30,419 nucleotides of DNA, taken from IMG/VR virus record IMGVR_UViG_3300042868_010192, positions 1 through 30,419 of that record; one strand, written 5' to 3'. This document shows, one piece after another, positions 161 through 29,833 of this stretch. The notes beneath the pieces are model-generated. The model saw nothing but the letters and a program-made list of their open reading frames with translations, did no database searches and was not told where the DNA came from. Made by a program: the position numbers and the translations under genes. Numbering within the stretch: position 1 is the stretch's first letter; every line of letters starts with the position of its first letter. The stretch comes from a virus.

Positions 161-204
161 AAACACCCCTCCAGAAAAATAAACAACAATAAAATAATAA
201 AGTT
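161..204 (+). promoter_or_regulatory. Intergenic CTCCAGAAAAA motif with A-rich leader
   Basis: Directly after the stop codon lies CACCCCTCCAGAAAAAT (164-180), followed by an A-rich stretch to the ATG at 205. It is a variant of the motif that recurs through the window (CCCAGAAAAA). The same position in the other haplotype (29791-29806) carries ACTCCCCCAGAAAAAA. Role unknown; it could be a leader element or a cassette boundary. Confidence 0.5.
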
Positions 205-996
205 ATGCCTATAAAAGAATGTCAAATAAATGGAGAGCAAGGATATAAATGGGGTGAACAAGGAAAATGTTACACTGGTCCAAATGCAAAAGAAAAAGCA
301 ATAGCACAAGGTATAGCAATTGGTGATTATAAATATGCAGAATCTTATAATGATTATCCAGAGGCAGTAAAGAATAATGCTAATAGAGCTTTAAAGTGGG
401 TAGAAGAAAATGGTTGGGGGAATTGTGGTGAAGCTACAGGTAAACAAAGAGCAAATCAATTAGCTAATGGTGAAAACATATCAAGAGATACAATAGCAAG
501 AATGGCATCATTTAAACGTCATCAACAATATAAAGATGTACCATATGATAAAGGTTGTGGTGGTTTGATGTGGGATGCCTGGGGAGGTGATGAAGGTATT
601 GAATGGGCACAAAGAAAATTAAAAGAAATAGATAAAATAAAAGAATTATCTAAATCAAATAAAATAAATAATAAAATAAAAAGTATTAAAGAAGTTTTAA
701 AAATTGTTAAAATAGGATTTGATTATGATGATACATTAACTCTTGTATCAACTCAAGATTTAGTTAAAAGATTAATTAGTTCTGGGGGGAATCAAATATT
801 TATTATATCAGCAAGAAACAATGCAGCATCACTTTATCCAATAGCTTCTAAATTAGGAATACCAATGACAAGAGTTTATGCAGTGGGTAGTAATGAAAAG
901 AAAGTTCAAAAGATTAAAGAACTAGGTCTTGATAAATTCTATGATAATAATCCTGATGTGATAAAAGAATTACCAGGGGTTGGAATTAAAGTATAA
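205..996 (+). CDS. Three-part phage protein with C-terminal HAD-like hydrolase domain
   Basis: The 263-residue protein has three recognisable parts. Residues 1-45 hold GYKWGEQGKCYTG followed by AKEKA, a short module I associate with phage head-maturation and portal-linked proteins. Residues 50-145 (YPEAVKNNA, WGNCG, ARMASFKRHQQ, CGGLMWDAWGG) form a conserved block seen in many phage proteins near capsid genes, with no assigned function. Residues 168-263 look like a small HAD-fold phosphatase: DYDDT with D173 and D175 as nucleophile and acid/base, S202 in IISAR, lysines near 232, and YDNN at 246-249. A Lys-rich linker (about 140-168) joins the parts. Substrate unknown. The gene sits directly before the terminase large subunit and is replaced by an HNH endonuclease gene at the other end of the window, so it behaves as an exchangeable accessory gene. 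Confidence 0.7.
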   Translation: MPIKECQINGEQGYKWGEQGKCYTGPNAKEKAIAQGIAIGDYKYAESYNDYPEAVKNNANRALKWVEENGWGNCGEATGKQRANQLANGENISRDTIARMASFKRHQQYKDVPYDKGCGGLMWDAWGGDEGIEWAQRKLKEIDKIKELSKSNKINNKIKSIKEVLKIVKIGFDYDDTLTLVSTQDLVKRLISSGGNQIFIISARNNAASLYPIASKLGIPMTRVYAVGSNEKKVQKIKELGLDKFYDNNPDVIKELPGVGIKV

Positions 997-1008
997 TACA
1001 ATCTATAA

Positions 1009-2202
1009 ATGGAACTAGAAATTAAGCATACTAACGTATTAACTAGAAATAATGTAGCCCTCAATAATAATGATATTCGTTTCATTGTTAATCAGGGGGG
1101 TTCACGTTCTTCTAAAACATATTCACTGTGTCAACTGATGATTATATACTGCCTCCAAAACAAAAATAAAACAGTATCTATTGTTCGTAAATCTTTCCCC
1201 TCTCTTAGGGCTACAATTTATAGAGATTTAATAGAGATTTTAAACACCCTTAATATTTATAATGAAAAGAATCACAACAAGACAGAGAATATTTATAAGT
1301 TCCCAAATGGAAGTAAGATAGAATTTTTTAGTTTAGATGATTCACAAAAGATTAGGGGACGTAAGAGGGATATACTTTTATGTAATGAGGCAAATGAATT
1401 AGAGTATGAGGAGTTTATGCAGTTGAATATGCGTACCACATCAAAGGTATTTGCAGATTTTAATCCATCTGATACAGAGCATTGGCTTTATGATTTGATT
1501 CAACGAGAGGACTCTACAATGATTCATTCAACTTACAAGGATAATACATTTTTGGAACAAAGTATTGTTAAAGAGATTGAAGAATTAATTAAAGTTGACC
1601 AGGATTTTTACAATATCTATGCTTTGGGTATACCCTCAAAAAATAATCACACAATATACAATCATCAACAATTCTTTTCTGAATATCCAAAAAACATTTC
1701 TTCAACTTTACTTTCTTTAGATTTTGGTTATGTTGACCCTAACGCTTTGGTTAGATTAGATTTTGTTGATAATAAAGTTTATGCAAAAGAATTATTGTAT
1801 GAAAGTTATATGACCACAACTGAATTAATTATAAGGGTAAAGAAAATATTGGAAGATGAACAACTACCCCTCTCAACTTTAATTGTCTGTGACTATGCAA
1901 GACCTGAGATTATATCTGAGATGAATCAGAATGGACTTAATTGTGTTAATGCGATAAAGAATATCAAAGAAGGAATTGATGCTGTTAAATCGAAAGAATT
2001 GTATATATATGATTATTCTTTAAATTTTAAAAAGGAGTTAAAGAATTATAAATGGAAAATGAGAGGTGAAGTATTATTAGATGAACCAGTAGATAAATGG
2101 AATCATATTTTAGATGGTTTACGTTATGGTATTCTTTATTACAAAAGAAATATTGGGGGGGTTAGTGCAGATAGTTGGGAATTTTTTACATTTACGATTT
2201 AA
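1009..2202 (+). CDS. terL: Terminase large subunit
   Basis: This is the DNA-packaging motor: an ATPase that drives DNA into the prohead plus a nuclease that cuts it. The 397-residue length is usual. The N-terminal ATPase shows Walker A GGSRSSKT (about 30-37), a Walker B-type DILLCNEANE with catalytic Glu near 127, and the coupling segment FADFNPS near 150. The RNase H-like nuclease shows LSLDFGYVDP (Asp near 238), IVCDYARPE (Asp near 297) and WNHILDGLRYG near 370. ATG 1009 follows an A-rich leader 12 bases after the upstream stop. From 1048 on, the DNA is identical to the partial second copy at 30343-30419, but the first 39 bases differ mainly at synonymous positions. It should bind the small subunit encoded at 29059 and dock on the portal encoded at 21404. 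Confidence 0.95.
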   Translation: MELEIKHTNVLTRNNVALNNNDIRFIVNQGGSRSSKTYSLCQLMIIYCLQNKNKTVSIVRKSFPSLRATIYRDLIEILNTLNIYNEKNHNKTENIYKFPNGSKIEFFSLDDSQKIRGRKRDILLCNEANELEYEEFMQLNMRTTSKVFADFNPSDTEHWLYDLIQREDSTMIHSTYKDNTFLEQSIVKEIEELIKVDQDFYNIYALGIPSKNNHTIYNHQQFFSEYPKNISSTLLSLDFGYVDPNALVRLDFVDNKVYAKELLYESYMTTTELIIRVKKILEDEQLPLSTLIVCDYARPEIISEMNQNGLNCVNAIKNIKEGIDAVKSKELYIYDYSLNFKKELKNYKWKMRGEVLLDEPVDKWNHILDGLRYGILYYKRNIGGVSADSWEFFTFTI

Positions 2203-2268
2203 AATCGGCTTCGCAATATCTAAATTTAAACAAGAAAACTTTTTTTCCGCATATTTATAGTTGGAAAT

Positions 2269-2302
2269 AAAAACAAACAACCTTCCCAGAAAAAAAAACA
2301 AA
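2269..2302 (+). promoter_or_regulatory. CCCAGAA motif that also decides the downstream start
   Basis: AACCTTCCCAGAAAAAAAAA lies at 2279-2298, immediately before ATG 2303. A TTG-initiated frame from 2261 would read through it, but every other intergenic copy of this motif is non-coding and the A-rich tract fits a Bacteroidota translation leader, so ATG 2303 is preferred. Confidence 0.5.
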
Positions 2303-5177: not shown

Positions 5178-6872
5178 ATGGCAATTACAATTTTAAATAC
5201 ACCAGCAAATTCATTAACGTATAAATTATACCCGGTGTATAATGGATTACCTTATGTTGTATCTAGTGAAAAAATAAATAGAACAAACTTTAAATATGTT
5301 GCTGATATTTATGTTGGTAGCACACTTGTTAGTACATTAAAACATAATAAAAATATAACTTATAATAATAAGGGTATTTTTGATTTTGGAAGAATTGTTG
5401 AAAACTTTTTAACTACTTCAAGAAATCAAATAACAAATGTTTCTGCTGTTTCAAATGAATTAGCTTCAATAGATTATCAAATTAAATTTGGTGAAGAATA
5501 TGAAAGATATTATAATTTTACTACTGTTTTAAATTCTGGGGGGAAAGCTAGATTTTATAATGCAACTGCAACAAATAATTTTAGAGTAGGTGATATGATA
5601 ACTATTCAAAATTCATCAGTTGCAGCTTACAATGGTTCTTGGACTGTAACTTCAGTTTCAAGTACTTCAGTTTTAACTAATTGTAATTTTGTTTCAACAG
5701 CAACTGGATTACTTATTGAATCAGAAAGGTTTTCAGATAATTATTGGAGTCCAAATCCAGGTGTTGGTGACTTTGTTGGGTTTGCAATACCTGTTTCTAG
5801 ACCAACAAGATTTAATATTGGTGATGCAATTGTTATTAAACAAGATGTTGGAGCTTTAAGATTAGGTTATGATGGTGAATGGACAGTAACAAATATAGTT
5901 TCTAAGACTATTTCTGGTGTTCAATACAATGTAATTGTAACAAATTGTCGTTGGTTTGGTACAAGTCCTGTTAATCCAGGGTGTATTTATGCATTGAGTA
6001 AATATAAATTTAAGAATTTAACTACTTCAACTACTGAATATACGTTTGATGGAGGGTTAGATTGGGATAAAATTGCTGGTTGGAACCCCCAAAACTACGC
6101 AATGAACACAACTTATGTTGGAGATTTCTTAACAAATGGACCAAAAGAGCAGTATATTTCATTAGATGAGTATGCAACTTTATCATTTTTTCATTCAACA
6201 ATTGTTGCATCTGATGCAAAAAAAGCTGTTTTTAAATCTTATTCTTCAAATGGAACATTATTAAATACATATTCATATACTATACCAACTGGTTTAGTTT
6301 CAAAATTAAGATTAGAGATTGGAACTGGTACAAGAAACTTACTTGGTAATTTATCTTTTGCTGGAGTTGATTATTATACAGTAGAATTACAAAATACTGC
6401 ATCAAATTTGGTTTCTGAGGTATTTAAATACAAGATTAATACAAAGTGTTATAGTTACACACAAAATCGTCTTAAATTCAAAAATAAATTAGGGGGTTGG
6501 GATTATTTTACATTTTCATTACGTTCAGATAAAAAAGTTACAATTGATAGAAATAATTATAATAAAAATTTAAAAACTCTTAACTCAAGTAATTTTTATG
6601 GTTATACTTTGGGTGAAAGGGGGAATACAACTTATTCAACAACTGCAATAGGAGAACAAATTTTAACTTCAGATTGGTTAAATAATGCTGAAGCTTCTTG
6701 GCTTGAAGAATTATTTACTTCACCAGATGTTTATTTATTAAATGAAACAAATGAGCTTCCAATTATAGTAACAAATACAGATTTTACAATTGGAAAAAAA
6801 GAAAATAAAGGATTAATTTCTTACAAAATAAATATTCAAGATTCATTTAACAAAGTAATTCAAAGAGCATAA
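5178..6872 (+). CDS. Tail tip / baseplate protein
   Basis: The product has 564 residues and is almost entirely strand-rich, with many Thr, Ser, Asn and aromatic residues and no signal peptide. NKGIFDFGRIVENF near residues 65-78 and the closing LISYKINIQDSFNKVIQRA resemble Bacteroidota phage tail-tip proteins. Two similar 'GDmI.I...  gsWTVT.v.s....l.NC.f' stretches (about residues 138-170 and 213-262) look like an internal repeat of a small beta domain. It is followed after two bases by the even larger tail gene, which suggests the two assemble together. The exact role (distal tail or hub) is not resolved. Confidence 0.55.
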   Translation: MAITILNTPANSLTYKLYPVYNGLPYVVSSEKINRTNFKYVADIYVGSTLVSTLKHNKNITYNNKGIFDFGRIVENFLTTSRNQITNVSAVSNELASIDYQIKFGEEYERYYNFTTVLNSGGKARFYNATATNNFRVGDMITIQNSSVAAYNGSWTVTSVSSTSVLTNCNFVSTATGLLIESERFSDNYWSPNPGVGDFVGFAIPVSRPTRFNIGDAIVIKQDVGALRLGYDGEWTVTNIVSKTISGVQYNVIVTNCRWFGTSPVNPGCIYALSKYKFKNLTTSTTEYTFDGGLDWDKIAGWNPQNYAMNTTYVGDFLTNGPKEQYISLDEYATLSFFHSTIVASDAKKAVFKSYSSNGTLLNTYSYTIPTGLVSKLRLEIGTGTRNLLGNLSFAGVDYYTVELQNTASNLVSEVFKYKINTKCYSYTQNRLKFKNKLGGWDYFTFSLRSDKKVTIDRNNYNKNLKTLNSSNFYGYTLGERGNTTYSTTAIGEQILTSDWLNNAEASWLEELFTSPDVYLLNETNELPIIVTNTDFTIGKKENKGLISYKINIQDSFNKVIQRA

Positions 6873-6874
6873 TT

Positions 6875-9748
6875 ATGGATTTCAAAATAATAGTAAAAAA
6901 ACAAAAGAACCAAACTTCCCAGACATTAGAAACATATGGAGATTTGGATATTAATATTATATATAATATAAGTGATATTCGTAATCCAGAATCCATAAAA
7001 TCTAATTACACAAAACAGTTTGATATTCCAGCAACAAAATTAAATAATAAATTTTTTGAAGGAATTTTATATAATGGATATTTTCCAAATGAATTTAATC
7101 CAAATTTAAAAGTTGATTGTCAATTGATGGTTGATGATTCAGAAATTATTGATGGTTATTTACAAGTAGTTGAAATTAAAAAAAATGCTGGAGTTGTTGA
7201 TTCATATTCAATTATTATTTATGGAGAAATTTCATCAATATTTTCAAAATTAAATGATTTATATTTAAGAGATTTAGATTTTTCAGAATATAATCACGTT
7301 TGGAATTATAAAAATATAACAAATAGTTGGGATACTTCTATTAAAAGAAATAATGTTGATGTATCTTTTTTAAAAGGTCGTGGCTATGTTTATCCATTTG
7401 AATATAGGGGTTCATCAAATGATTATTTACAAGTTGAAGATTTCTTTCCAGCAACATATGTAAAAGAAATTTTAGATAAGGCTTTCAAATATTCTGGGAA
7501 GAGGTATACGTCAGACTTTTTTGAATCTGACTTTTTCAAATCATTAATAATAAGTTATAATAAAGCTCATATTTATTTAACAGAAGACCAAATAGCATTA
7601 AGAGAATTTGAAGCAAAAAAATCAAGTAATGAATTATTAACTACAATGTCTCCTTTGGTTGCTACTACATCTAATGATTTTTTAGTTAAATTTGACCAAG
7701 AGATTAGTGATGTAAATAATTTGTGGCAAAGTAATGCATATTATATTCCTAAAAATAAAGTTAATAATAATCTTGGAATTGATTTAAATTTAAAAGTAAT
7801 TTATACAGCAGCAGTTTCCTCTTCTACTCCTTGGGTGATTGGTGGACCAAATATGACTGCTACTGCTGTATTGAAAAATATAACTACAGGTCAAGTATTG
7901 AAAACTGAAACAGTTGAAATAGTTAATCCATATGGTACAATTATTGGAGCTGCTTCTTCTACTTCTTCAGTTCAATTAACTTATGAAAATGTATTTGAAT
8001 TAAATAATCAATATGCTGTATATATTAATTTTACTGTTCCAGCTGGAAATGCATCTTCAAAATTTATAAATTCTTCAGGTCAAGCTGTTAATGGAAATAT
8101 AAATTGCTATGTTGAATCTAATTCTACAATATTATCAACTGTTACAAATGCTTATTTGTATGAAGGAGATACAATTGATATGACTCAAACATTGCCTGAT
8201 AAAGTAAAAATTTCTGATTTTATAACATCTTTAAATAAACTTTTTAATCTTTATTGGATTGCTGATGGTGATGGTAACTTTTTAATTGAGCCTAGAGATG
8301 ATTTTTATGCTAAATCTGATGCTAAAATATTAGATTGGACTGATAATATAGATAGAGATAATGAAATCACTATAACACCTTTAAAAGAGTTAAATAATAA
8401 AAAATATGATTTCTATTATACCGAAGACCAAGATTATTACAATACTGAGTATACAAATACTGAAAAAAATAAATATGGAGAAAGAAGTATTGAAATAATA
8501 AATGATTTTTTAACTGAAACATTAGAAATAGTTCCTTTATTTTCTCCTTCTCCGATTACTCAATATAAAGATACAGATATTGCTTGTAATTCATTTGTTG
8601 AATATATCGATGGATATTTTGAAACATATGAAGGTAATACAAGAATTTCCATTTATGGCGGATTACTTAATACCTCTTCAAAATGGAGATTTAAAGCTTC
8701 AGAGGATTCTTATAATGTAGTCTTAACTAAATATCCATATGCTGGTCATTTAAATCATCCAAATACACCGTCTATTGATATAATGTATGGAAAATGTAAG
8801 CATTATTTTTATAATTGGATAAATTTAACTACAAATAATTTATATAATAAATATTGGAAAAATACAATCAATGATATAATTGCAATTGATTCTCATTTAT
8901 TTAAAGCAAAAGCTCATTTGAGATATTATGAAATTTTAAGTTTAAAACTTTATGATACAATTCAAGTTGATGAAGTATATTATAAAATTAATTCAATTAA
9001 TTTCAATCCAATAACAGAAATTGCTGATATTGAATTATTTAAAACAACATATTTTAATTCTAAATCAAATTCATTAATTGTAAAACCTACATATTCAGTT
9101 CAAACAAATAGTACAGGAGTTATTACTGGTCAAGTTGGTGGATTTGGTTCTGTTTGGAAAGCGATTGATTCTGAAATGTTGGTTAGGTCAAATCTTGTAG
9201 ATATTTCTAATTTTTATTTTCATACAGAATCAACTGAATTAAGTGAATTTGGAAATCAAGAAGAATTTAATCAAATTGATTTACAAAATATTTCTTTTGG
9301 TTCTGGAAAGGCTACAAAAAGAAACGTTAATGGAAATACTTATCAAAAAGAAAATTTTATTGAATTAAATGGTGCAAATAATTATGTTTCCCCTGGAACA
9401 ATTGGTGTAAAAGTTTTAGGAAATAATAATCAAATTAGTTCTAATTCAAGAAATATAAATATTGTTGGTAATAATAATTATGTTGAAAATGGATTAGAAA
9501 ATATTACTATTATTGGTAATAATATTTATGCAACAAAATCAAACTCAACTTATATTGATGGAAAAATATTAAATAAAGATGGATTTGTTGATGAATATAA
9601 TTATATAAATGGAGGAGTAAATGAAGTTTTAAATCCATTTGGAAGTGCTCAAAAACCGAATTTAATTCGTGCTGGAATAAATGCTGTTTTAAATATTGGA
9701 GGGATGAGTCCTAGGAATTTAATAAAAGGAGGAATAGATAAATTATAA
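6875..9748 (+). CDS. Large tail tip / baseplate hub-like protein
   Basis: This 957-residue protein begins with a beta-rich domain containing SDIRNPESIKSNYTKQFDIPAT, a motif type I associate with Bacteroidota phage baseplate proteins. It has a middle section with LYWIADGDGNFLIEPRDDFY, and ends with a low-complexity turn-rich region (GNNNQIS, NINIVGNNNYV, NITIIGNNIY) that looks like rungs of a beta-helix. Near the C-terminus EVLNPFGSAQKPNLIRAG and AVLNIGGMSPRNLIKGG form an imperfect duplication. The length is in the range of tail-tip hub proteins that reach the cell surface. Fibre genes follow. Confidence 0.55.
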   Translation: MDFKIIVKKQKNQTSQTLETYGDLDINIIYNISDIRNPESIKSNYTKQFDIPATKLNNKFFEGILYNGYFPNEFNPNLKVDCQLMVDDSEIIDGYLQVVEIKKNAGVVDSYSIIIYGEISSIFSKLNDLYLRDLDFSEYNHVWNYKNITNSWDTSIKRNNVDVSFLKGRGYVYPFEYRGSSNDYLQVEDFFPATYVKEILDKAFKYSGKRYTSDFFESDFFKSLIISYNKAHIYLTEDQIALREFEAKKSSNELLTTMSPLVATTSNDFLVKFDQEISDVNNLWQSNAYYIPKNKVNNNLGIDLNLKVIYTAAVSSSTPWVIGGPNMTATAVLKNITTGQVLKTETVEIVNPYGTIIGAASSTSSVQLTYENVFELNNQYAVYINFTVPAGNASSKFINSSGQAVNGNINCYVESNSTILSTVTNAYLYEGDTIDMTQTLPDKVKISDFITSLNKLFNLYWIADGDGNFLIEPRDDFYAKSDAKILDWTDNIDRDNEITITPLKELNNKKYDFYYTEDQDYYNTEYTNTEKNKYGERSIEIINDFLTETLEIVPLFSPSPITQYKDTDIACNSFVEYIDGYFETYEGNTRISIYGGLLNTSSKWRFKASEDSYNVVLTKYPYAGHLNHPNTPSIDIMYGKCKHYFYNWINLTTNNLYNKYWKNTINDIIAIDSHLFKAKAHLRYYEILSLKLYDTIQVDEVYYKINSINFNPITEIADIELFKTTYFNSKSNSLIVKPTYSVQTNSTGVITGQVGGFGSVWKAIDSEMLVRSNLVDISNFYFHTESTELSEFGNQEEFNQIDLQNISFGSGKATKRNVNGNTYQKENFIELNGANNYVSPGTIGVKVLGNNNQISSNSRNINIVGNNNYVENGLENITIIGNNIYATKSNSTYIDGKILNKDGFVDEYNYINGGVNEVLNPFGSAQKPNLIRAGINAVLNIGGMSPRNLIKGGIDKL

Positions 9749-9803
9749 ACCCTTCCCAGAAAAAACAAAACAAACAACAAATATATTTTAAATAAAACAA
9801 AGA
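9747..9803 (+). promoter_or_regulatory. CCCAGAA motif and A-rich leader
   Basis: The motif ACCCTTCCCAGAAAAAAC starts one base after the stop codon and is followed by CAAAACAAACAACAA and an AT-rich leader to ATG 9804. It marks the border between the baseplate genes and the fibre genes. Confidence 0.5.
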
Positions 9804-11681
9804 ATGAGTGGATTAAATATAAATAATTCTAGACTTCAATTTAAATTTTCTACAATATCAGGTACAACTCCAACTATTGCTCCATCTACAGATTTTACAG
9901 ATGGAACTTGGATTGATACTGATTTATATGTTGGAGAATTCTTTTTGAATGCTGCAGATAATAATATGTGGGTAAGAACATTAACTGGAATTGTGCCAAT
10001 TACATCAGGAACAACTACAGTTGATATTTCAGCTTTTGTTAATAAAACAGGAGATACAATGAGCGGTAATTTATATTTACCAGCTTTATCAGCTTCAACA
10101 ATTTCAGGAAATACGATTTATTCTAATCATTTTGAGGGTAATTTTTACGGAGATGGAAGTAATTTAACTGGAATTACTGCTACAGTTTTTACTGGTGGTA
10201 CTATTTCAGGACCAGTTACGTTTACAGACACTGTTGATTTTTGTTCTGGGGATGTTACAATAGATTCTTTATCAAGTTGTGGAGATGCAATTGATATATT
10301 CACAAATTTAAATGTTGTTGGAGCTATTACAGCAACTACATATTATGGAGATGGAAGTAATTTAGCTGGTGTAGCTTCTCCACAAACACTTGAAGAAACA
10401 CTTGTATTAGGAAATGAAACTGGTAATAATAATATATTAATACCAAATTCTTATGGTATATTTAATTCAACTGGAGTTGATGCTAGTGCTGGTTTAACAT
10501 TTGATTCAGATGGAACTTATTTAGTAGCTAGTACTGGTGTAACAAATGATGTTGGTGCAAGAGCTATGCTAGGTGTTACTAAAATTGGAGATGCAACAAT
10601 TCAAGTTGAAAATAATGTTGAATTCAATATGAATCGTAATGGATTAGGAGCTGGTACTTTTAGTGTATTTGGCTATACTGGATTCAATGGTATTGAATAT
10701 GGAGCAGATTATTCTACTAATTTTACAAATCGTTCACTTGTTGATAAAGAATATGTTGATAATGCTATATCTGGTTTTACTGATTATACATATATTACAG
10801 AGGATACTATAGCTGAAACACTTGTATTTTCTGGTGCAAATTCTATAGTAACAACAGTTACTGGTATTGATAATACAGACACACTAAGGATTGATGGTGA
10901 TGAAATTAGATTAACTGCTTTAGGACCAGATGGAGAAACTAATTATTTAACTGTAAATAGAAATATTATAGCAAATTATGCATCACTTGAAAATGTTGCT
11001 AATAATTATGCATATGAAACATTATCACCAACTCAAAAAAATATAAATATATATGATGATACTAATGCTCAATCAACATATACATTAACACAAACATCAG
11101 AAATATCAAGAATTGAAGATGGAAGTGGTGGATTATCAGAATCTAATATAAACGCTAGTACTGCTTATTTATTAAATACTGGTGGTGAGGGTGTAGATAC
11201 TTCTGTTAGTGTTGACCAGAATTATGCTGAGATGAAACAAGTTGAAGGTTCATCAGTAACTAGATTACAAGTATCAAATGATGGTTTTTATAAATCTCAA
11301 TTTGGCTCAACTGGTATATCAAAAGGTGTTTCTAAAACAAACTTTACAAGTGCTGAAACAACTGGTGCTACACCAACTACTTTAATTTGGCCATTATCTG
11401 GTTTAGAAGTTGGAACAACTGCTGTTGGAATAAAAGCAACAGTTACTGGAATAAATTCAACTGATGATAAAGCATATTTATCTGAATTATATGCAGCAGT
11501 TAGAATGAATGCTTATGCAGTTACAATATTTGGAGGAGTTGATAAATTAGAAAAAAGTGAATATACAACAGCAACTTCAACTATTGATATTGATTCATTA
11601 AATGCAGCAATAATTGTTACTGGTGAAGTTGGTGAAACAATTAGATGGTCAGTTAAATACGAATTAATTTATAGCGCATAA
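9804..11681 (+). CDS. Tail fibre-like protein with GDGSNL repeats
   Basis: This 625-residue protein is rich in Thr, Ser, Gly and Asn, as expected for trimeric fibres. It opens with a tip-attachment type sequence (DGTWIDTDLYVGEFFLNAADNNMWVRT) and carries NKTGDTMSGNLYL, a motif common at the base of fibres. Two copies of FYGDGSNLTGI / YYGDGSNLAGV near residues 114-124 and 180-190 recur in the next gene. The C-terminal 100 residues (TGATPTTLIWPLSGLEVGTTAVGIKATVTG) form a separate beta domain. Probably a receptor-binding or adhesion protein. Confidence 0.65.
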   Translation: MSGLNINNSRLQFKFSTISGTTPTIAPSTDFTDGTWIDTDLYVGEFFLNAADNNMWVRTLTGIVPITSGTTTVDISAFVNKTGDTMSGNLYLPALSASTISGNTIYSNHFEGNFYGDGSNLTGITATVFTGGTISGPVTFTDTVDFCSGDVTIDSLSSCGDAIDIFTNLNVVGAITATTYYGDGSNLAGVASPQTLEETLVLGNETGNNNILIPNSYGIFNSTGVDASAGLTFDSDGTYLVASTGVTNDVGARAMLGVTKIGDATIQVENNVEFNMNRNGLGAGTFSVFGYTGFNGIEYGADYSTNFTNRSLVDKEYVDNAISGFTDYTYITEDTIAETLVFSGANSIVTTVTGIDNTDTLRIDGDEIRLTALGPDGETNYLTVNRNIIANYASLENVANNYAYETLSPTQKNINIYDDTNAQSTYTLTQTSEISRIEDGSGGLSESNINASTAYLLNTGGEGVDTSVSVDQNYAEMKQVEGSSVTRLQVSNDGFYKSQFGSTGISKGVSKTNFTSAETTGATPTTLIWPLSGLEVGTTAVGIKATVTGINSTDDKAYLSELYAAVRMNAYAVTIFGGVDKLEKSEYTTATSTIDIDSLNAAIIVTGEVGETIRWSVKYELIYSA

Positions 11682-11693: not shown

Positions 11694-12809
11694 ATGATAA
11701 ATAAAAATAATAACATAAGTGATTTAGTAAGTATTTCAGCTACAACATATTATGGAGATGGTTCAAATTTGACTGGAATATCTGGTGGTGGAACATTTAC
11801 TGGTGGAACTGTTACTGGAGAAACTATTTTTTCTGGGGGATTGTCAGCAGAAACAATTACATTAGATACAACATATACTGGAACAACTGGAATTGGAACA
11901 ATATCTTGGAATAGTGATTTTGGTGTACCTCAAGTTGGAATGATTGGTGGTAATGTTGTTGGTAAGATTAATGAAAGTTTATATGCATATGTTAAAAATG
12001 TAGATTCAACAACACTTAATAAAGGTGAAGTTGTTTATATATTTGGTGCTAGTGGTGATAAAATGTCAGTTAAAAGAGCGTCTGCAACTGGTGACACAAC
12101 ATCATCAAAAACACTTGGTATTGTTGCTGAATCAATTAGTGTAAATGGGTTGGGATATATAATCACTCAAGGAACACTTGATGGTTTAAATACAGCTTCA
12201 TATGCAGCAGGTGATGTTTTATGGTTATCTGAAACACCAGGTCAATTTACAAATATTAAAAAATATGCTCCAGTACATTTAGTTTTTGTTGGAGTTGTTC
12301 AAAGAGCAAATGCAGGAAATGGACAAATATTTGTTCGTCCTCAAAATGGATATGAATTAGAAGAATTACATAATGTTGCAACAACTGGTGCAACTAATGG
12401 TAATATTATTGTTTATAATTCTGGAACAACTTTATGGGAAAATAGAGCTAATGTTGGAAGTTTTGGAATTACAATTGATGGTGGAGGTTCAGCAATTACA
12501 ACTGGGGTCAAAGGATATGTTGAAATACCTTATAATGGCGTAATTACAAGTTGGACTTTGACTTCTGATGTTTCTGGGAGTTGTGTGATTGATGTATGGA
12601 AAGATACATATGCAAATTATCCCCCAACAATTGCTGATACAATTGCTGGAAGTGAAAAACCTACTTTATCATCTTCTAATAAAAATCAAGATAATAGTTT
12701 ATCAACTTGGACAACAAATGTAAATGCTGGTGATATTATTGCATTCAATGTAGATTCAGCAAGTACTGTTACAAGACTTAATTTAAGCATAAAAATAAAT
12801 AAAATATAA
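11694..12809 (+). CDS. Tail fibre / structural protein with conserved C-terminal domain
   Basis: The product has 371 residues. Near the start ATTYYGDGSNLTGIS repeats the module of the preceding fibre gene. Residues about 90-230 (YAYVKNVDSTTLNKGEVVYIFGA, TLGIVAESI, GQIFVRPQNGYELEELHNV) match a capsule-like beta domain that I know from many phage fibre and virion proteins. The last 110 residues (FGITIDGGGSAITTGVKGYV, VIDVWKDTYANYP, WTTNVNAGDIIAFNV) form a second common phage domain, often at fibre tips. Inside the gene are two TTCTGGG motif copies (11831, 12572). The stop overlaps the next ATG by one base. Confidence 0.65.
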   Translation: MINKNNNISDLVSISATTYYGDGSNLTGISGGGTFTGGTVTGETIFSGGLSAETITLDTTYTGTTGIGTISWNSDFGVPQVGMIGGNVVGKINESLYAYVKNVDSTTLNKGEVVYIFGASGDKMSVKRASATGDTTSSKTLGIVAESISVNGLGYIITQGTLDGLNTASYAAGDVLWLSETPGQFTNIKKYAPVHLVFVGVVQRANAGNGQIFVRPQNGYELEELHNVATTGATNGNIIVYNSGTTLWENRANVGSFGITIDGGGSAITTGVKGYVEIPYNGVITSWTLTSDVSGSCVIDVWKDTYANYPPTIADTIAGSEKPTLSSSNKNQDNSLSTWTTNVNAGDIIAFNVDSASTVTRLNLSIKINKI

Positions 12810-13041: not shown

Positions 13042-14268
13042 ATGGCAACTAGAACGATATCAAATGCTGGAGGAAATTATAATGCAACTGGAACTTGGGT
13101 TGAAGGTGTTGTTCCAACATCTGCTGATGATGTTGTAGCTACAGCTACATCTGGTCAATTAACAATGAATATTTCAGGAGCAGCAAGAAGTTTTGATTTT
13201 ACAAATTATACAAATACACTTACAATGAATAATACTTGGACAGTAAGTGGTGTTGCATTACAAACTTTTGTATCTGCAATGACAATTGCTGGTACATTTA
13301 ATATTGCTATAACTGGTGCTGGTGCTTCAATAACATCAAATGGTAAAACTATACCAAATTTAAATTTAAGTGGTAATAAAACATTAAATGATACTTTAAA
13401 TGTTGTTAATTTTTCAGTTTCAACTACAAGTGTTTTTACTGGAAATGCAATAAATTGTTCTGGTAACTGGACAACTAGTACTACTTCTATTGGTGGTACA
13501 ACTGTTATTAATTTAACTGGTACTGGAACTGTATCTTTTGGTAATTTTGTTGGAAGTGGTGGTTTAAATATTAATTCAGCAGGTTCATTATCTGGAAATA
13601 CTATTGGTATTGGTTTAGGAGCAAATACAACATTGAATTATTCTGGAGGTACATTATCTCAAATGAAAATAAAATTAGCTGGTCAACCAGTTACAATAAA
13701 TGGAAATGGAGTTGAATTTGAAAGTTTTGATGATACTGGTGTAGCAGCAACACAATCAACAGTAAATTTATCTTCAGAATTTAAAGTTAAATATTTTAAT
13801 GGTGCTATTGGTACTGGTTCATTTAATCCAGGAACACATAATCAAATTATATTTGCAGGAACTGGAGCATTAAATGTTACTCAATCAATGAATTTAACAA
13901 ATCTTTTAGTTAATTCAGTTGGTGTTATTCAATATAAACCATATTCTATTGCTTTTCAAACTGGTGTTACACATACAATAAATATATTAAATATTAATGG
14001 ATTTCAAGGAATTACACCAAATACAACACTTTCTGGCACATATGCAAGATTAAGAAGTTCATCAGTTGGAAATAGAGCAAATATTAATTTACTTAATCCA
14101 ACTCAATCAATTATTGCAAATACTGATGTTACAGATATCAATTTTACTGGACCAGCTGTTTATACACTTTGTTCAGGTGGTACAATATCAAATTCATTAA
14201 ATGTTACAAATGGTGTAATAGGTGGCGGTTCTTCAATTTCTGGGGGTGCTTGGACATTTGTAAATTGA
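13042..14268 (+). CDS. Beta-helix-like adhesin / tail fibre protein
   Basis: The product has 408 residues. It starts ATRTISNAGGNYNATGTWVEGVVPT, a type of opening seen in phage surface proteins, and continues with short repeating strands rich in Gly, Asn, Thr and Ser (GNKTLNDTLNVVNFSV, GTTVINLTGTGTVSFGNF) typical of a right-handed beta-helix or beta-prism. No enzymatic motif is evident. It closes the fibre group before the tape measure gene, an unusual order. A TTCTGGG motif copy lies near its 3' end (14238). Confidence 0.6.
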   Translation: MATRTISNAGGNYNATGTWVEGVVPTSADDVVATATSGQLTMNISGAARSFDFTNYTNTLTMNNTWTVSGVALQTFVSAMTIAGTFNIAITGAGASITSNGKTIPNLNLSGNKTLNDTLNVVNFSVSTTSVFTGNAINCSGNWTTSTTSIGGTTVINLTGTGTVSFGNFVGSGGLNINSAGSLSGNTIGIGLGANTTLNYSGGTLSQMKIKLAGQPVTINGNGVEFESFDDTGVAATQSTVNLSSEFKVKYFNGAIGTGSFNPGTHNQIIFAGTGALNVTQSMNLTNLLVNSVGVIQYKPYSIAFQTGVTHTINILNINGFQGITPNTTLSGTYARLRSSSVGNRANINLLNPTQSIIANTDVTDINFTGPAVYTLCSGGTISNSLNVTNGVIGGGSSISGGAWTFVN

Positions 14269-14280
14269 TTATATAAAATA

Positions 14281-14343
14281 GAAACACCTCTCCAGAAAAA
14301 ACAAAAGTAATACTTCAAATATTTTAAAGTATAAATATAGACT
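14281..14343 (+). promoter_or_regulatory. CTCCAGAAAAAA motif and leader of the tape measure gene
   Basis: GAAACACCTCTCCAGAAAAA lies 13 bases after the fibre gene's stop and about 40 bases before ATG 14344. A short AT-rich inverted repeat, ATACTTcaaatattttAAAGTAT, follows (14311-14333). Confidence 0.45.
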
Positions 14344-17289: not shown

Positions 17290-18414
17290 ATGACAAAAAA
17301 ATTACCAACTTATAAAATTGTAGTTAATGAAGGAGATGATTCTGGAGTTTACGCAGTAAGTTTAGTAGACCAACCAGCCATTGAAATTGATTGGATTAAA
17401 TTATCGAAAGAAATTGTTGAATTTGAGTTTGCTGCAAATAAAGATAAGCAATTATTATATGGTCCTTTATTAATTCCTGGGAAGTTGATTTTTAGAAGAG
17501 ATGATAAAGGTAATGAATATAATATCGTTTTTGATGCAGAAACTATTCAAATAATTGCTGATAAATTTAACAAAAATAAATTAAGTGATTCATTTAATTT
17601 TATGCATTCAGATAAAACTGTAGATGCTTATATTGTTGAAAATTGGTTAACTGGAACTATTGATAAATCTCAATCATTTGGATATAACCTCCCAGAAAAT
17701 ACTTGGTTCGCTTCAGTAAAAGTAGATAGTAATGACTTTTGGTTAAAAGAAGTTAAAACAGAAAAAGTAAAAGGATTTTCAGTTGAAATTAAAGCTGGAA
17801 TTGAACTAGTTGAAGAACTTAATAAAGTAAACCTGTCAGAAGATGACAAAACAATAAATACAAATCTTATGGAAATAAAAACAAAAGATGGTCTTTCATT
17901 ATTTACAGATGGAGATTTAGCTTTAAATGTAAAAATTTATGCTGATGATGCAATGCAAACTCCAATTGAAGATAATGATTACCAATTAGAAGATGGAACA
18001 GTAATTTCAGTTATGAATGGTGCTGTAGCGGAAATATCTGCTGCTGAAGAAGAAGCTGAAGATGTTGCTGAAGAAATGCAAGAAGAATTAGCAGTTGATG
18101 CTCAAGTTGAAGTTCCAGCTGAAGCTCCAGCTAAAGACGCAATTGACCCCCAAGCAATCTTGGACATCGTTGCACCTGAAATGGATTCATTAAAAAATGC
18201 ATTAGCTGAAATTATGGCTAAAATTGCTGAAATGGAATCTAAATTAGCGCAAGATTCTACATCTGAAAAAATGGAAGAATTAAAAGCTCAAGTAGAAAAA
18301 TTATCTGCTATGCCAGCTACAACTTCTATTGATTCTAAAAATGATTCAAAAATCAAACAAAATAAAGAAGATAAAGTTGTTGAGAGATTAAACTCAATCA
18401 AAAAATATATATAA
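17290..18414 (+). CDS. XkdF-like prohead protease with fused scaffold region
   Basis: The N-terminal 175 residues (YKIVVNEGDDSGVYAVSLVDQPAIEIDWI, LLYGPLLIPGKLIFRRDD, FNFMHSDKTVDAYIVENWLTG, VKGFSVEIKAG) match XkdF-type phage serine proteases; H in FMHSD and S in GFSVE are candidate catalytic residues. From about residue 255 the sequence becomes a long acidic coil (EEEAEDVAEEMQEELA ... LKNALAEIMAKIAEMESKLA), typical of a scaffold domain. So one chain probably scaffolds the capsid and then digests itself during maturation. A CCCAGAA motif copy lies inside the gene at 17691. The next gene starts immediately after the stop. Confidence 0.7.
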   Translation: MTKKLPTYKIVVNEGDDSGVYAVSLVDQPAIEIDWIKLSKEIVEFEFAANKDKQLLYGPLLIPGKLIFRRDDKGNEYNIVFDAETIQIIADKFNKNKLSDSFNFMHSDKTVDAYIVENWLTGTIDKSQSFGYNLPENTWFASVKVDSNDFWLKEVKTEKVKGFSVEIKAGIELVEELNKVNLSEDDKTINTNLMEIKTKDGLSLFTDGDLALNVKIYADDAMQTPIEDNDYQLEDGTVISVMNGAVAEISAAEEEAEDVAEEMQEELAVDAQVEVPAEAPAKDAIDPQAILDIVAPEMDSLKNALAEIMAKIAEMESKLAQDSTSEKMEELKAQVEKLSAMPATTSIDSKNDSKIKQNKEDKVVERLNSIKKYI

Positions 18415-20750: not shown

Positions 20751-20814
20751 ATTTCTGGGATGGGTGGTTATATTTTTTTTATAAACAATTTCAATATCAA
20801 ATATATTTCTAAAT

Positions 20815-21403: not shown

Positions 21404-22606
21404 ATGGGAATTTTTAACTTTAGAAAAAATATAGAAAATACAAACACCTCTCCAGAAAAAAAGGAAGAAGGATTTGATTTAATTAATAGTGTAATAAAAC
21501 TAGGCGCAGAAAATATTGCACCAACAATTGCAGAAAAACATAATGAAGATTTTGTAGCATATGGAATAAACAATGATTTTCCAAACTATTTAGATGTATT
21601 ATATAAAAACGCACCTACACATCAAGCAATTATAGATTGTAAAAGCTTATTGGTTGCAGGAGATGGTTATGTTTTAAATGATACTTCATTAAATGATGTA
21701 CAAAAAAATTCATTAAATCAAATTCTTAAATTTATTGATGGAAAAAATTCTTTACAAAAGTTTTTAAATGAAACATCTAGAGATTTAGAAATGTATGGTG
21801 CAATATGTGTTGAAATTATTTGGTCAGTAGATAGAACTAAATGGGTAAAAGCAAAAAGAATTTCACCAAAAAATATTCGTTCTGGTAAATTTATTGATGG
21901 AGAAGTAAGAGATTATTTTTATTCAAGAGATTGGACAAATAGAAGAGAGAAATATACTAGAATTGCTGCATTTGATATTGATAATAAAGATGAAGCAAGA
22001 CAATTACTTTATGTTCCATTATCATTATTGACTCAAGAATATTACGGAGAGATAGATTATATGGCTTGCTTAAATTGGTGTGCTCTTGAATATCAAACAG
22101 GAAATTATTATAAATCTTTAATGGATAATAACTTCTCCCCAAGTATGATTGTTCAATTTTTCCGTAAACCAAATTCACAAGAAGAGCGCGACCAAGTAGT
22201 GAAAGGACTTAAACAAAGTTTTGGGGGAACTGGAAATGCTGGTAAAGTAATGGTTACATTCTCAAATGATAAAGATTCAGCACCTGAAATTAAACCAGTT
22301 GAAGTAAGTTCAGTAGATAAACAATTTACCGTATTGGCAGACCAGATTCAATCAAAAATTGTTACTGGACATCGTGTAACAACATCTGAATTATTCGGAA
22401 TTAACATTCCTGGAAAACTTGGTTCAGCTGATTTTCCAACTCAAGTAGAAGCATTTAATAAATTTGTAATACGTCCTTCTCAAATTATCGTTGAAGAAAT
22501 GATAAATAAACTTTTTTATATAAATGGTTTAAATCTTGATTTTAAAATTATTCCATTAGAATTAGATAGTATTAAATCAAATCAAACTCAAACTCCAAAT
22601 AATTAA
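21404..22606 (+). CDS. Portal protein
   Basis: The product has 400 residues. It contains portal hallmarks: GINNDFPNYLDVLYKNAPTHQAIIDCKSLLVAGDGY at the start of the fold, SRDLEMYGAICVEIIW, KRISPKNIRSG, LLYVPLSLLTQEYYGEIDYMACLNW, the C-terminal helix-like GTGNAGKVMVTFSND, and VTTSELFGINIPGKLGSADFPTQVEAFNKFVIRPSQ. It forms the dodecameric ring used for DNA entry and tail attachment. Portal genes normally directly follow terminase and precede the capsid gene; here it comes after capsid and tail tube. Codons 14-20 (NTSPEKK) encode one of the recurring CTCCAGAAAAAA motifs (21441-21462) in a linker that looks disordered. Confidence 0.8.
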   Translation: MGIFNFRKNIENTNTSPEKKEEGFDLINSVIKLGAENIAPTIAEKHNEDFVAYGINNDFPNYLDVLYKNAPTHQAIIDCKSLLVAGDGYVLNDTSLNDVQKNSLNQILKFIDGKNSLQKFLNETSRDLEMYGAICVEIIWSVDRTKWVKAKRISPKNIRSGKFIDGEVRDYFYSRDWTNRREKYTRIAAFDIDNKDEARQLLYVPLSLLTQEYYGEIDYMACLNWCALEYQTGNYYKSLMDNNFSPSMIVQFFRKPNSQEERDQVVKGLKQSFGGTGNAGKVMVTFSNDKDSAPEIKPVEVSSVDKQFTVLADQIQSKIVTGHRVTTSELFGINIPGKLGSADFPTQVEAFNKFVIRPSQIIVEEMINKLFYINGLNLDFKIIPLELDSIKSNQTQTPNN

Positions 22607-23204: not shown

Positions 23205-23633
23205 ATGAAATCATTTTTAACCTATATATTTTCCACTATATTAGCATTTTTTTTGCCTGTAACGCCATTACTTTTAACAATGATAGGATTTATCACACTA
23301 GATACTTTAACAGCGTTATATGTAACATATAAACTTAATGGAAGAAAATCAATTAGAAGTCATAAATTCTTTTCAATTGTACCTAAATCTTTTTTATATT
23401 GTGCATCAATTATTTTAGCATTTTGTTTAGATAAATTTATTATTGGTGATTCTGGATTAATGGGAATTCAAATGCCATTATCAAAATCGATGATGATTGT
23501 ATGGATATTAAATGAGATAAGTTCTCTAAATGAGAATTCAATGAAATTGGGTAATAGAAGTTTTTGGGTTATTGTTGGAGATGCTTTTAATAAATTGAAA
23601 ACTTTAAAAAAAGATTTAAACGAAGTTAAATAA
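23205..23633 (+). CDS. Putative holin
   Basis: The 142-residue membrane protein has hydrophobic segments at about residues 5-35 (TYIFSTILAFFLPVTPLLLTMIGFITLDTLTALYV) and 60-80 (FLYCASIILAFCLDKFII), a basic stretch KLNGRKSIRSHKF, and a C-terminal charged tail (KLKTLKKDLNEVK). The 'D.lTAl' pattern with a later 'lneissl.EN' segment is typical of phage holins of the Bacteroidota/Firmicutes type. It should make the inner membrane permeable at lysis time. It begins the lysis cassette. Confidence 0.65.
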   Translation: MKSFLTYIFSTILAFFLPVTPLLLTMIGFITLDTLTALYVTYKLNGRKSIRSHKFFSIVPKSFLYCASIILAFCLDKFIIGDSGLMGIQMPLSKSMMIVWILNEISSLNENSMKLGNRSFWVIVGDAFNKLKTLKKDLNEVK

Positions 23634-23674
23634 AATTGTTTTTTCTGGGGGTTGTTTTATTTTTTGAAAAGATT
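23634..23674 (-). promoter_or_regulatory. CCCAGAA motif in reverse orientation (TTCTGGG)
   Basis: TTTTTTCTGGGGGTTGTTTT lies at 23639-23658, between the holin stop and ATG 23675. A TTG start at 23636 would read through the motif, which argues for the downstream ATG. Confidence 0.45.
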
Positions 23675-25031: not shown

Positions 25032-25117
25032 GTCTCTGGGAGGTTGGGTTGATATGTTGGTTGATTTGGAATAAGTAAAACAAAAAGAAAAAAGAAACAA
25101 CCTTCCCAGAAAAAAAG
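25032..25117. repeat. Facing pair of CCCAGAA-type motifs
   Basis: CTCTGGGAGGTTG (25036-25048) and CAACCTTCCCAG (25099-25110) are inverted copies of the recurrent motif about 50 bases apart, pairing perfectly except one bulged T. The region carries no gene. Confidence 0.5.
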
Positions 25118-25202
25118 AAATAAGTTCGCTAAGTAAATCAGAAAGTTCAAAGCTAAGAATAGAAAGTAATACTCATAAAAAAATAGTCTTAATATTGTAA
25201 TG

Positions 25203-25380
25203 CACCCAAAAATGGGGTTAAAACACCCCCAAAAATGGGTGTCTTTTAATTACAGATATATAAAACACCCCCAAAAATAGGTGTCTTTTAACTTTATATA
25301 TAAAATAAAAACACCCCCAAAAATGGGTGTCTTTGCCCTCTCTAGGAAAGTTAAAACACCCCCAAAAATGGGTGTCTTTT
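25203..25380. repeat. Array of four 28-bp inverted repeats plus a truncated one
   Basis: Four units, each beginning AAAACACCCCCAAAAA and ending GGGTGTCTTTT or a one-base variant, start at 25220, 25262, 25308 and 25353. Starts are 42, 46 and 45 bases apart, close to four DNA turns. Each unit is a hairpin (ACACCC / GGGTGT). Spacers are 14, 18 and 17 bases, all different. A truncated unit (CACCCAAAAATGGGG) lies at 25203-25217, its CACCC 21 bases before that of the first full unit. The array stands 215 bases upstream of a replication-type protein gene, so it may be an origin with iterons or an operator cluster. A row of bidirectional terminators is the alternative. Confidence 0.7.
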
Positions 25381-25451
25381 TCATAATAATTATCTGTGTA
25401 GAATTACGTATATTATAATCTTTTTTAAAAATATTTTGATTATTCATATCA

Positions 25452-26711: not shown

Positions 26712-26743
26712 TTTTTTTAAAACTATTTATATAAAGAATGGAG

Positions 26744-26771
26744 ATAACCCCCCAGAAAAAAGAAAAACATT
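26744..26771 (+). promoter_or_regulatory. CCCAGAA motif upstream of 26772
   Basis: ATAACCCCCCAGAAAAAAG lies at 26744-26762, about ten bases before the ATG. CTATTTATA (26723 onward) precedes it; the same string occurs before 27234 and 28337. Confidence 0.45.
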
Positions 26772-27458: not shown

Positions 27459-27459
27459 T

Positions 27460-27492: not shown

Positions 27493-27513
27493 AATAATAA
27501 ATAAAACAAGAAT

Positions 27514-27714
27514 ATGAGTAAATTTAAATTAGAAGATTTATTGGTTGCATATAAAGGCCAATATTTAAAAATAGATAGAATTCAAGGTGCGATTGCATTT
27601 TGTGTATCTCAAAAAGGTATGTATGGATTAAACATTGATAAAGCAAGAAGTTTAATTGTAAAGAAAGCAATACCAGTATCATTGAATATTAAATTAGAAC
27701 AGATTATGAAATAA
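27514..27714 (+). CDS. Unknown small early protein
   Basis: A 66-residue protein (KFKLEDLLVAYKGQYLKIDRIQGAIAFCVSQKGMYGLNIDKARSLIVKKAIPVSLNIKLEQIMK) combining short strands and helices, with slight basic excess. Preceded by its own promoter and followed by a hairpin-rich segment ending in a terminator. Function unknown. Confidence 0.55.
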   Translation: MSKFKLEDLLVAYKGQYLKIDRIQGAIAFCVSQKGMYGLNIDKARSLIVKKAIPVSLNIKLEQIMK

Positions 27715-27718
27715 AGAT

Positions 27719-27833
27719 TTTTTTTTTAAGTTCGTCACAAAAGTGACAAGTTCGCTTGCCAAGGCGGTTAATCGTTTGACATCGATTATTTATTTTAGAA
27801 GTCCTCTCAATTAATTTTGGGGGGATTTTTTTT
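27719..27833 (+). terminator. Three small hairpins ending in a terminator
   Basis: GTCAC/GTGAC (27734-27747), CGCTT/AAGCG-type (27753-27766) and AATCG/CGATT (27770-27787) hairpins precede a terminator stem TCCTCTCAA / TTTGGGGGGA (27802-27825, several G-U pairs) and a T run. AAGTTCG is directly repeated (27728, 27748). Possibly a 3' untranslated region with processing sites, or a small RNA. Confidence 0.5.
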
Positions 27834-27864
27834 ATTTTTCATTTCCCAAATCTATACAAAGTTC

Positions 27865-27886
27865 CAACATCCTCCCCAGAAAAAAG
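27865..27886 (+). promoter_or_regulatory. CCCAGAA motif upstream of 27932
   Basis: CATCCTCCCCAGAAAAAAG lies 46 bases before the ATG. An exact inverted 15-mer, TTTCTGGGGAGGATG, occurs inside the following gene at 28161-28175. Confidence 0.45.
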
Positions 27887-27931
27887 AAAAAATATATTTA
27901 CATATAAATAACTATTAAAATATAAATCACT

Positions 27932-28285
27932 ATGAAAAAGAAAATAAACAGTATAGAATATTACATAGATAATAAAATAAATAATGAACAAGAAAGATTA
28001 GATATAATAGATAAGCTATCAGAAATAAGTATAGAAGAAATAATAGAAAAGAATATATTATTAAAACACTATATAGAAAAAGAAGATTACAATAAATGTA
28101 AAGCAGTAAAAGATGCTATCAATAAACATATAAAAATAAGTTCTAAACTATTGTCAAAAGTTTCTGGGGAGGATGAGGAAGATATATTTAATTTCCTGAT
28201 AATGCAGAACGATAATTTATTTAAGTTCATTGTGCTTGGTGATGAGATTGATTGGAATGAAAAGTTAAGAGATTATATTGGATAA
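27932..28285 (+). CDS. Unknown helical early protein
   Basis: The product has 117 residues and looks fully helical and highly charged (NEQERLDIIDKLSEISIEEIIEKNILLKHYIEKEDYNKCKAVKDAINKHIK). The codons around 28161-28175 (VSGED) include an inverted copy of the motif before the gene. No family recognised. Confidence 0.55.
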   Translation: MKKKINSIEYYIDNKINNEQERLDIIDKLSEISIEEIIEKNILLKHYIEKEDYNKCKAVKDAINKHIKISSKLLSKVSGEDEEDIFNFLIMQNDNLFKFIVLGDEIDWNEKLRDYIG

Positions 28286-28318
28286 TTTTTTTTTATCATT
28301 TAGGCGATTTTATAAAAT
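28286..28318 (+). promoter_or_regulatory. Possible weak early promoter
   Basis: A T9 run (28286-28294) ends 16 bases before TATAAAAT (28311-28318), matching the spacing of the three stronger promoters but not the TTTG end. It would serve the gene at 28337. Confidence 0.35.
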
Positions 28319-28336
28319 TTCTTACTATTTATAATT

Positions 28337-28819: not shown

Positions 28820-28888
28820 ATAAAAATGAAAAATTCCATTGCGAAGCTTACCAACTTGTGAAAAGTTGGGCTACGCAATCAAAGATTA
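28808..28888. repeat. Three-helix hairpin flanked by 11-bp direct repeats
   Basis: ATTGCG/CGCAAT (28838-28843, 28874-28879), AGC/GCT and CCAACTT/AAGTTGG (28851-28857, 28863-28869) form one long imperfect hairpin. It is flanked by ATCAAAGATTA at 28808-28818 and 28878-28888. The first copy covers the nuclease stop codon. No T run follows. The segment before the terminase genes is where packaging (cos or pac) sites usually lie. The rest of 28889-29058 is AT-rich with no gene. Confidence 0.55.
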
Positions 28889-29058
28889 ATACAATTATTC
28901 GAAGCAAAAAGCAAGTTTTGGGGGGTCAATATCAATTCTATTAATCTACTAACTTAATAGACTATTTAACTAATTAATAATCAACTACTTATAAATCAAT
29001 AAACACAACATCAATAAAAAATATTTTCATATAACATCATAAAACAATAAAATTAAGA

Positions 29059-29499
29059 ATGAGAAAGGTCAACCCCACATACAAAAAACAAGATTTAATC
29101 AATATGATTATTGATTGGACAGCAACGGGAATCCCCCAACAACAGATAATTAAGAATTTAGTTGAACTAGAATATTCGGTGGTTTACAGTTATCAATTAA
29201 TTGCAGAAGCTAAACCTTTAGTTAATGAAGCTTTAATAGATATTACGAGGGATAGGTTAGCAGCAACAATTGCTAAAATGGAAAAAATGTATATGGATAC
29301 TAATGATAAAAAATTAAGGTTAGAAATCCAAAGAGAAATAAATAGAATATCAGGTTTGCATTATCAAAAGATTGATGTAACAACAAATGGAAAAGATATT
29401 AACAATATTGAGGTAATTAAATTAATTGAGATAATGCCCTCAAACACTGACAATCAGGAAGTTATGAAATTACCTGAAGAAATAAAAAAGTTAAAATAA
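29059..29499 (+). CDS. terS: Putative terminase small subunit
   Basis: The product has 146 residues. The N-terminal part (QDLINMIIDWTATGIPQQQIIKNLVELEYSVVYSYQLIAEAKPLV) is a helix-turn-helix pattern with the 'g....i...l' spacing of small terminases. A helical middle (LAATIAKMEKMYMDTNDKKLRLEIQREINRISGLHYQKIDVT) matches the oligomerisation region, and the ending I..IEVIKLIEI is also common in this family. It should recognise the packaging site and load the large subunit. The gene is one small and one variable gene upstream of terL. Confidence 0.65.
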   Translation: MRKVNPTYKKQDLINMIIDWTATGIPQQQIIKNLVELEYSVVYSYQLIAEAKPLVNEALIDITRDRLAATIAKMEKMYMDTNDKKLRLEIQREINRISGLHYQKIDVTTNGKDINNIEVIKLIEIMPSNTDNQEVMKLPEEIKKLK

Positions 29500-29519
29500 A
29501 TTTAAAACAATTTAAAATT

Positions 29520-29786
29520 ATGTTAAAATTAAAAAAAGAATATGAGGGGTTAATCGTGAGTAGAGTTAATCCAATGTTAGGTAATGTTACTTTTGATACA
29601 AATAAAGTTGACCCTTCAAAATATGAGAACTATGCAAAGATTGGATTTGAGCATATGTTTGAAGAAATATTTGAAGCAGTTGTTGATGCAGTTATTGAAA
29701 TTGCAAAAGATAAGATTGAGGATATAACTGAAAAGATAGTTGAAAGAAGAATTGTTAGGGGGAAAAGAAAACCTTTAAAGAAATAG
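29520..29786 (+). CDS. Conserved small phage protein (complete copy)
   Basis: The product has 88 residues. Its middle (SKYENYAKIGFEHMFEEIFEAVVDAVIEIAKDKIEDITEKIVE) is a continuous amphipathic acidic helix and its tail is basic (RRIVRGKRKPLKK). The 'Y..Y...GF..mFEE' pattern resembles short proteins found near terminase genes of Bacteroidota phages. Function unknown. The last part is duplicated at 2-160 in a variant form. Confidence 0.65.
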   Translation: MLKLKKEYEGLIVSRVNPMLGNVTFDTNKVDPSKYENYAKIGFEHMFEEIFEAVVDAVIEIAKDKIEDITEKIVERRIVRGKRKPLKK

Positions 29787-29833
29787 GAATACTCCCCCAG
29801 AAAAAATAAAACAAACAAATAAATAATAAAACT
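29787..29833 (+). promoter_or_regulatory. CCCAGAA motif at the haplotype switch point
   Basis: ACTCCCCCAGAAAAAATAAA (29791-29810) lies directly after the stop of the small gene and 24 bases before the HNH gene. In the left-end version the same place has CACCCCTCCAGAAAAAT, after which the genes are unrelated. Confidence 0.5.

Follow-up and report, generated by a model that had tools for sequence, protein, structure and literature searches.

A short asymmetric word dispersed through the leaders and genes of a phage of Bacteroidota is very probably a selected recognition site

The viral contig IMGVR_UViG_3300042868_010192 (30,419 bases, analysed over its full length and referred to here as the window) carries a short asymmetric word, CCCAGAA on one strand and TTCTGGG on the other, in an excess that is real and specific to its lineage. 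We count 21 sites with this asymmetric core, ten on the + strand and 11 on the − strand, and because their number is far above what coding or base composition explains, the word is very probably under selection as a recognition site for some protein or RNA. The window has a GC content of 27%, and every gene recognised in it is on the + strand; genes for terminase, portal, capsid and tape-measure-like proteins assign it to the phages of Bacteroidota. The role that we prefer for the word, at somewhat less than even confidence, is as binding sites for a factor that recognises a specific DNA sequence and is probably a regulator made by the phage, comparable with stoperators or start-associated sequences.

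The word is in excess in genes and in intergenic DNA

A first-pass annotation of the window had listed seven copies of CCCAGAA (2285, 9755, 17691, 25105, 26751, 27875, 29796) and ten of TTCTGGG (780, 5534, 7492, 10244, 11831, 12572, 14238, 20753, 23643, 28162), all of which are exact. Its three CTCCAGAAAAA variants are present but start at 169, 14290 and 21450 rather than at 170, 14289 and 21449 (at most one base off), and the placement of several copies is corrected here: 23643 probably falls between genes, the copies at 17691 and 21450 are within genes and on the + strand, and there is an additional − strand near copy at 25033-25039. Counted on both strands against a dinucleotide Markov model, the kind of test that the annotation had called for, the 7 bp word is found 17 times where 1.97 are expected (z 10.7), and the excess holds. 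This model is a weak test on composition alone, and because several other G/C-rich words also exceed it, genes and intergenic DNA were tested separately.

Within genes, TTCTGGG is present nine times versus about 0.55 in synonymous-codon shuffles using the listed gene start at 23636, and eight times versus 0.51 when that start is moved to 23675 (2000 within-gene shuffles, maximum 4, Poisson P 8e-8). After codon shuffling it ranks first among all 7-mers in the genes, and TTCTGGGG, the reading in six of the eight coding-strand TTCTGGG copies, ranks first among 8-mers. For the intergenic DNA (2.9 kb) an order-2 model predicts 0.28 copies of CCCAGAA and 0.12 of CCAGAAAAA, where six and eight are found, so that the same word is indicated independently by both tests. 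A simple habit of pairing TCT with GGG codons was ruled out, as all eight instances of TCTGGG within genes are preceded by a T that belongs to the codon before, and GGG follows TCT only where that T is present (8 of 23, versus 0 of 8 without it); the word extends into the neighbouring codon and is therefore no mere codon-pair preference. The earlier suggestion that the word looks selected is thus backed by both tests, and also by the extended consensus in leaders and by homologous places in relatives that lack the word. Counts within expectation after modelling of codon and neighbour composition had been named as grounds for dismissing it, and the excess persists under such modelling.

Leader copies share a long form

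Eight intergenic copies have in common a long form, AAACAYCYYCCAGAAAAAA, with an information content of 36.5 bits across 26 columns. A start codon lies 17-56 nt downstream of seven of them, even in intergenic stretches of 100-326 nt. All eight are on the + strand. The first, GAAACACCCCTCCAGAAAAATAAACA (159-184; profile score 34.1), is 34 nt, measured from CCAG, before ATG 205, and AAACAACCTTCCCAGAAAAAAAAACA (2274-2299) is 17 nt before ATG 2303 of a sigma-like gene, with a TATTTATA box upstream at 2252. The copy ATAAACCCTTCCCAGAAAAAACAAAA (9744-9769) lies directly past the stop of the preceding gene and 48 nt before ATG 9804, and GAAACACCTCTCCAGAAAAAACAAAA (14280-14305), 52 nt before ATG 14344, could pair with TTCTGGGGG at 14238. 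AAACAACCTTCCCAGAAAAAAAGAAA (25094-25119) is within a 624-bp stretch free of open reading frames (ORFs) and has an inverted partner at 25033. Closer to the right end, GAGATAACCCCCCAGAAAAAAGAAAA (26740-26765) is 20 nt before ATG 26772 with a TATTTATA box upstream at 26724, CAACATCCTCCCCAGAAAAAAGAAAA (27864-27889) is 56 nt before ATG 27932, and GGAATACTCCCCCAGAAAAAATAAAA (29785-29810), 37 nt before ATG 29834, is a strain variant of the copy at 159. A terminator role for the leader copies was rejected, as the C run is followed by an A run and not by a T run.

A 26-position profile built from these eight copies gives 11 sites at scores of 16 or above versus 0.1 in controls, although eight of the 11 are the copies used to build it. 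The scan does identify a ninth strong copy outside the building set, AAACACCTCTCCAGAAAAAAAGGAAG (21440-21465, + strand; score 28.4), which is 46 nt inside the portal ORF, together with three weaker ones on the − strand, at positions 20753, 25033 and 23643. The first of these, TTCTGGG at 20753-20759 (score 21.6), is intergenic and directly follows a terminator-like hairpin and T-run, as does the near copy TCTCTGGGAGGTTG at 25033-25039 (score 19.2). The third, TTTTTTCTGGGGG at 23643-23649, lies between the ORF at 23205-23633 and a likely start at ATG 23675, and is probably intergenic since the listed TTG start at 23636 is doubtful and ATG 23675 opens a signal-peptide-like sequence.

In addition to the portal copy there is one other + strand site within a gene, the exact CCCAGAA at 17691-17697. 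The remaining eight in-gene sites are on the − strand and all entered the codon-shuffle count: TTCTGGG at 780-786 (which reads TCT GGG GGG, where relatives with the aligned Gly mostly have GCT GGT), 5534-5540, 7492-7498, 10244-10250, 12572-12578 and 28162-28168, TTTTTTCTGGGGG at 11831-11837 (also in the profile scan), and TTCTGGGGG at 14238-14244, close to the end of the ORF at 13042-14268. Those at 5534, 7492 and 10244 were also aligned with relatives. With all genes on the + strand, eight of the 11 intergenic copies are + and eight of the ten gene copies are − (Fisher P 0.03).

The word is absent from related phages

Terminase searches yielded about 90 related contigs with terminases 23-73% identical to that of the window. 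None of them is enriched in the word, and pooled they contain 36 copies versus 106 expected. Where in-gene sites could be aligned with relatives, the word is missing from the latter, with the Gly often kept but its codon and neighbour different (e.g. GCT GGT GGT opposite TCT GGG GGG in the window). In the leader beside the terminase, the nearest relatives keep the TATTTATA box and the sigma-like gene and lack the C-rich word. We therefore infer that the word was gained in the window lineage, by substitution. The exact pattern AACCTTCCCAGAAAAAA is found in only two unrelated contigs in IMG/VR, with one copy apiece. A lack of conservation in related phages had been proposed as evidence against function, and the sites are indeed not conserved; however, because the word is clearly non-random within the window genome, we read this as recent gain rather than as absence of function.

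A different word, AAA[CG]ACGAA, is dispersed through L064 and L100, which are related to the window more distantly. It occupies 28 and 26 places respectively, nearly all on the coding strand and spanning all three reading frames, with codon-shuffle z values of about 6-7, and is present in the leader following the terminase as well. The case is weaker than for the window, because other words in these genomes reach similar z values. AAA[CG]ACGAA is also seen in L058, L063 and L078. This suggests that phages of this group tend to carry words specific to their lineage. A broader proposal, to which we give only modest credence, is that each phage of the family has its own dispersed word, spread as point substitutions arise in leaders and at synonymous sites in genes, and read by a putative phage factor whose specificity changes between lineages, which would constitute a genome-wide addressing system outside the actinobacteriophages. 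In L053, a CCTGATGTTCC-type word recurs across the whole locus, with about 40 to 54 copies over 8.7 kb, and these are probably repeats in a structural gene.

Possible functions of the sites

The interpretation as sites for a DNA-binding factor is preferred because it fits copies in both leaders and genes, in both orientations, and a specificity that changes between lineages; a protein-binding site also remains the likeliest of the candidates in the first-pass annotation. The predicted recognition site would have the core YCCCAGAA, gained many times in the phage lineage and retained by selection at the nucleotide level, and would be bound as double-stranded DNA by a factor that is most likely phage-encoded. 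The strong, long leader sites would mark the starts of transcription units, with the same factor also occupying the weaker sites in genes, and binding near the start and along transcribed genes could tune or block transcription, or organise the genome, in the manner of an operator or stoperator set. Several observations weigh against it. PHROG and Pfam scans of the window recognised no repressor, integrase or other DNA-binding regulator besides the probable sigma-like protein, many ORFs matching no family, and the promoter box of the sigma-like protein appears to be TATTTATA and not the CCCAGAA word. The opposing orientations of leader and gene copies (8:3 versus 2:8, with the Fisher P of 0.03 given above) are not predicted for a plain DNA-binding site, and absence of the word from the closest relatives requires a recent change in either specificity or host.

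There are two mycobacteriophage systems with which the sites may be compared. The stoperators of cluster A phages such as L5 and Bxb1 are short asymmetric sites present 20-30 times per genome, with a sequence that varies by phage group (PMC6550527), and the window similarly has 21 short asymmetric sites over one genome and a lineage-specific sequence. However, stoperators are mostly oriented along transcription and have a known repressor, whereas here ten sites are + and 11 are −, most gene copies run against transcription, and no repressor is recognised. The start-associated sequences (SAS/ESAS) of cluster K phages are asymmetric repeats upstream of many start codons, mostly in one orientation and of unknown function (PMC3203893). 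The window resembles these in having an asymmetric word upstream of starts, with leader copies mostly in one orientation, but SAS/ESAS are immediately upstream of the start and found cluster-wide, whereas the leader copies here are 17-56 nt away, the word is absent in relatives at the pooled counts above, and about half of the copies are in genes.

An alternative that we consider unlikely is an RNA leader element, in which CCYYCCCAGAAAAAA in the 5′ leader of the mRNA would either base-pair with a G-rich stretch of RNA, located upstream or inside the transcript, or bind an RNA-binding protein, and UUCUGGGG within genes would provide partners or decoys. Every leader copy is in the sense orientation, complementary G-rich stretches occur within 150 nt upstream of them more than at random places (combined P 4e-4; candidate pairings are 14238/14289, 25036/25105, 132/168 and 29758/29794), and pairing agrees with the opposite orientation of most gene copies. 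On the other side, the fold z-scores are modest (−2.2 to +1.1), in-gene copies have neither local partners nor local hairpins, some of the upstream G runs are parts of terminator-like hairpins (27797-27830), three intergenic copies are antisense, and Rfam gave no match. The earlier idea of an RNA-processing or leader signal could thus account for the leader copies but does not extend to the in-gene copies, nearly all of which are in the opposite orientation. That the sites are instead promoter elements for the transcription machinery of the phage itself, centred on the sigma-like gene at 2303-2932, is highly unlikely; the leader position of the copies and the likely presence of a phage sigma-like protein fit such a role, but at 2285 and 26751 only 10-15 nt separate the end of the copy from the start codon, which leaves too little room for a promoter of the gene in question, and both copies are downstream of a TATTTATA box that is retained in relatives lacking the word.

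A Chi-like site for host RecBCD or AddAB, kept by a phage lacking its own recombinase for protection of DNA ends and recruitment of recombination, is unlikely to about the same degree as the RNA leader element. The G-rich TTCTGGGG is similar in flavour to known Chi words, in-gene copies are selected at synonymous positions, and family scans recognised no recombinase or other recombination genes in the window phage, although phage inhibitors are small and divergent. In E. coli, Chi is over-represented in recombinase-lacking phages, and its density is equal in Rec- phages and the host (PMC3784561). Here, by contrast, TTTCTGGGG or TTCTGGGGG reaches at most about 60 per Mb in up to 395 sampled Bacteroidia genomes versus 230 per Mb in the phage, and none of the 295-395 genomes screened for a host Chi matches the phage density, so that the Chi-like candidate of the first-pass annotation finds no support in the sample, though the host of this phage may fall outside it. 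In G186, CCCCCAGAAAAAA is in excess but at 5-18 copies per Mb. Neither the clustering of sites in leaders nor the long A-rich leader consensus is expected of Chi. It is very improbable that the word simply rides on a general favour for G and C runs in an AT-rich genome. A weaker, broader excess of such runs is present in the window, and after codon shuffling its genes have 21 copies of GGGGG versus 5.9 and six of CCCCC versus 0.5 (L006 differs), but TTTGGGG (3 versus 1.8) and ACTGGG (1 versus 1.7) show no clear excess where TTCTGGG has 9 versus 0.6, in-gene TCTGGG is always preceded by T, and conservation in the leader copies far exceeds the C run.

Genome context

In an annotated phage collection, phages of Parabacteroides and Bacteroides give the top terminase matches (34% identity), and INPHARED contains no near DNA match to the window. 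A search with the portal protein recovered no relatives, one with a 957-aa protein recovered two, both distant, and Rfam and tRNA scans of the window gave no matches. The window ends are diverged overlapping copies (1-140 and 991-1124 versus 29630-30419; 94% and 84%), with 1-140 pairing with 29630-29769 when the overlap is read as two strain variants. The end copy has a NUMOD4-HNH endonuclease gene (29834-30307) and the start copy has a gene at 205-996 in its place, with the terminase next in both. The assembly probably combines two strains that differ by a homing-type endonuclease gene, the genome being circular or redundant. The leader site is kept by both variants, with the pyrimidine tract differing by C/T changes only. 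Four hairpins, AAACACCCCCAAAAATGGGTGTCTTT, spaced 42-46 nt apart at 25219-25393 in the 624-bp ORF-free stretch, have no Rfam match.

The 209-aa protein encoded immediately after the terminase (2303-2932) is 50-56% conserved in relatives, and from sequence and fold comparisons it looks like a small extracytoplasmic function (ECF)-type sigma factor. Three of nine family members have weak matches to the Pfam domain Sigma70_r4_2, and nearly all of the top fold matches are sigma factors, with E values of 0.08 or worse and none significant alone. The TATTTATA box is found upstream of genes in the window at 2252, 26724, 27198 and 28326, and also in L030 and L034, where it is preceded by a AACTTTTTCAAAT-like sequence; it is possibly the promoter of this phage group.

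Implications

In the literature searched, we came across no report of dispersed sites, whether regulatory or Chi-like, from phages of Bacteroidota. The codon-shuffle test on the relatives suggests that dispersed words vary by lineage. If the interpretation of the word as a selected site is correct, the window would provide a directly testable phage case in which a second code, unrelated to protein, shapes synonymous positions, and the sites would give access to how phages of Bacteroidota regulate their genes or protect their DNA.

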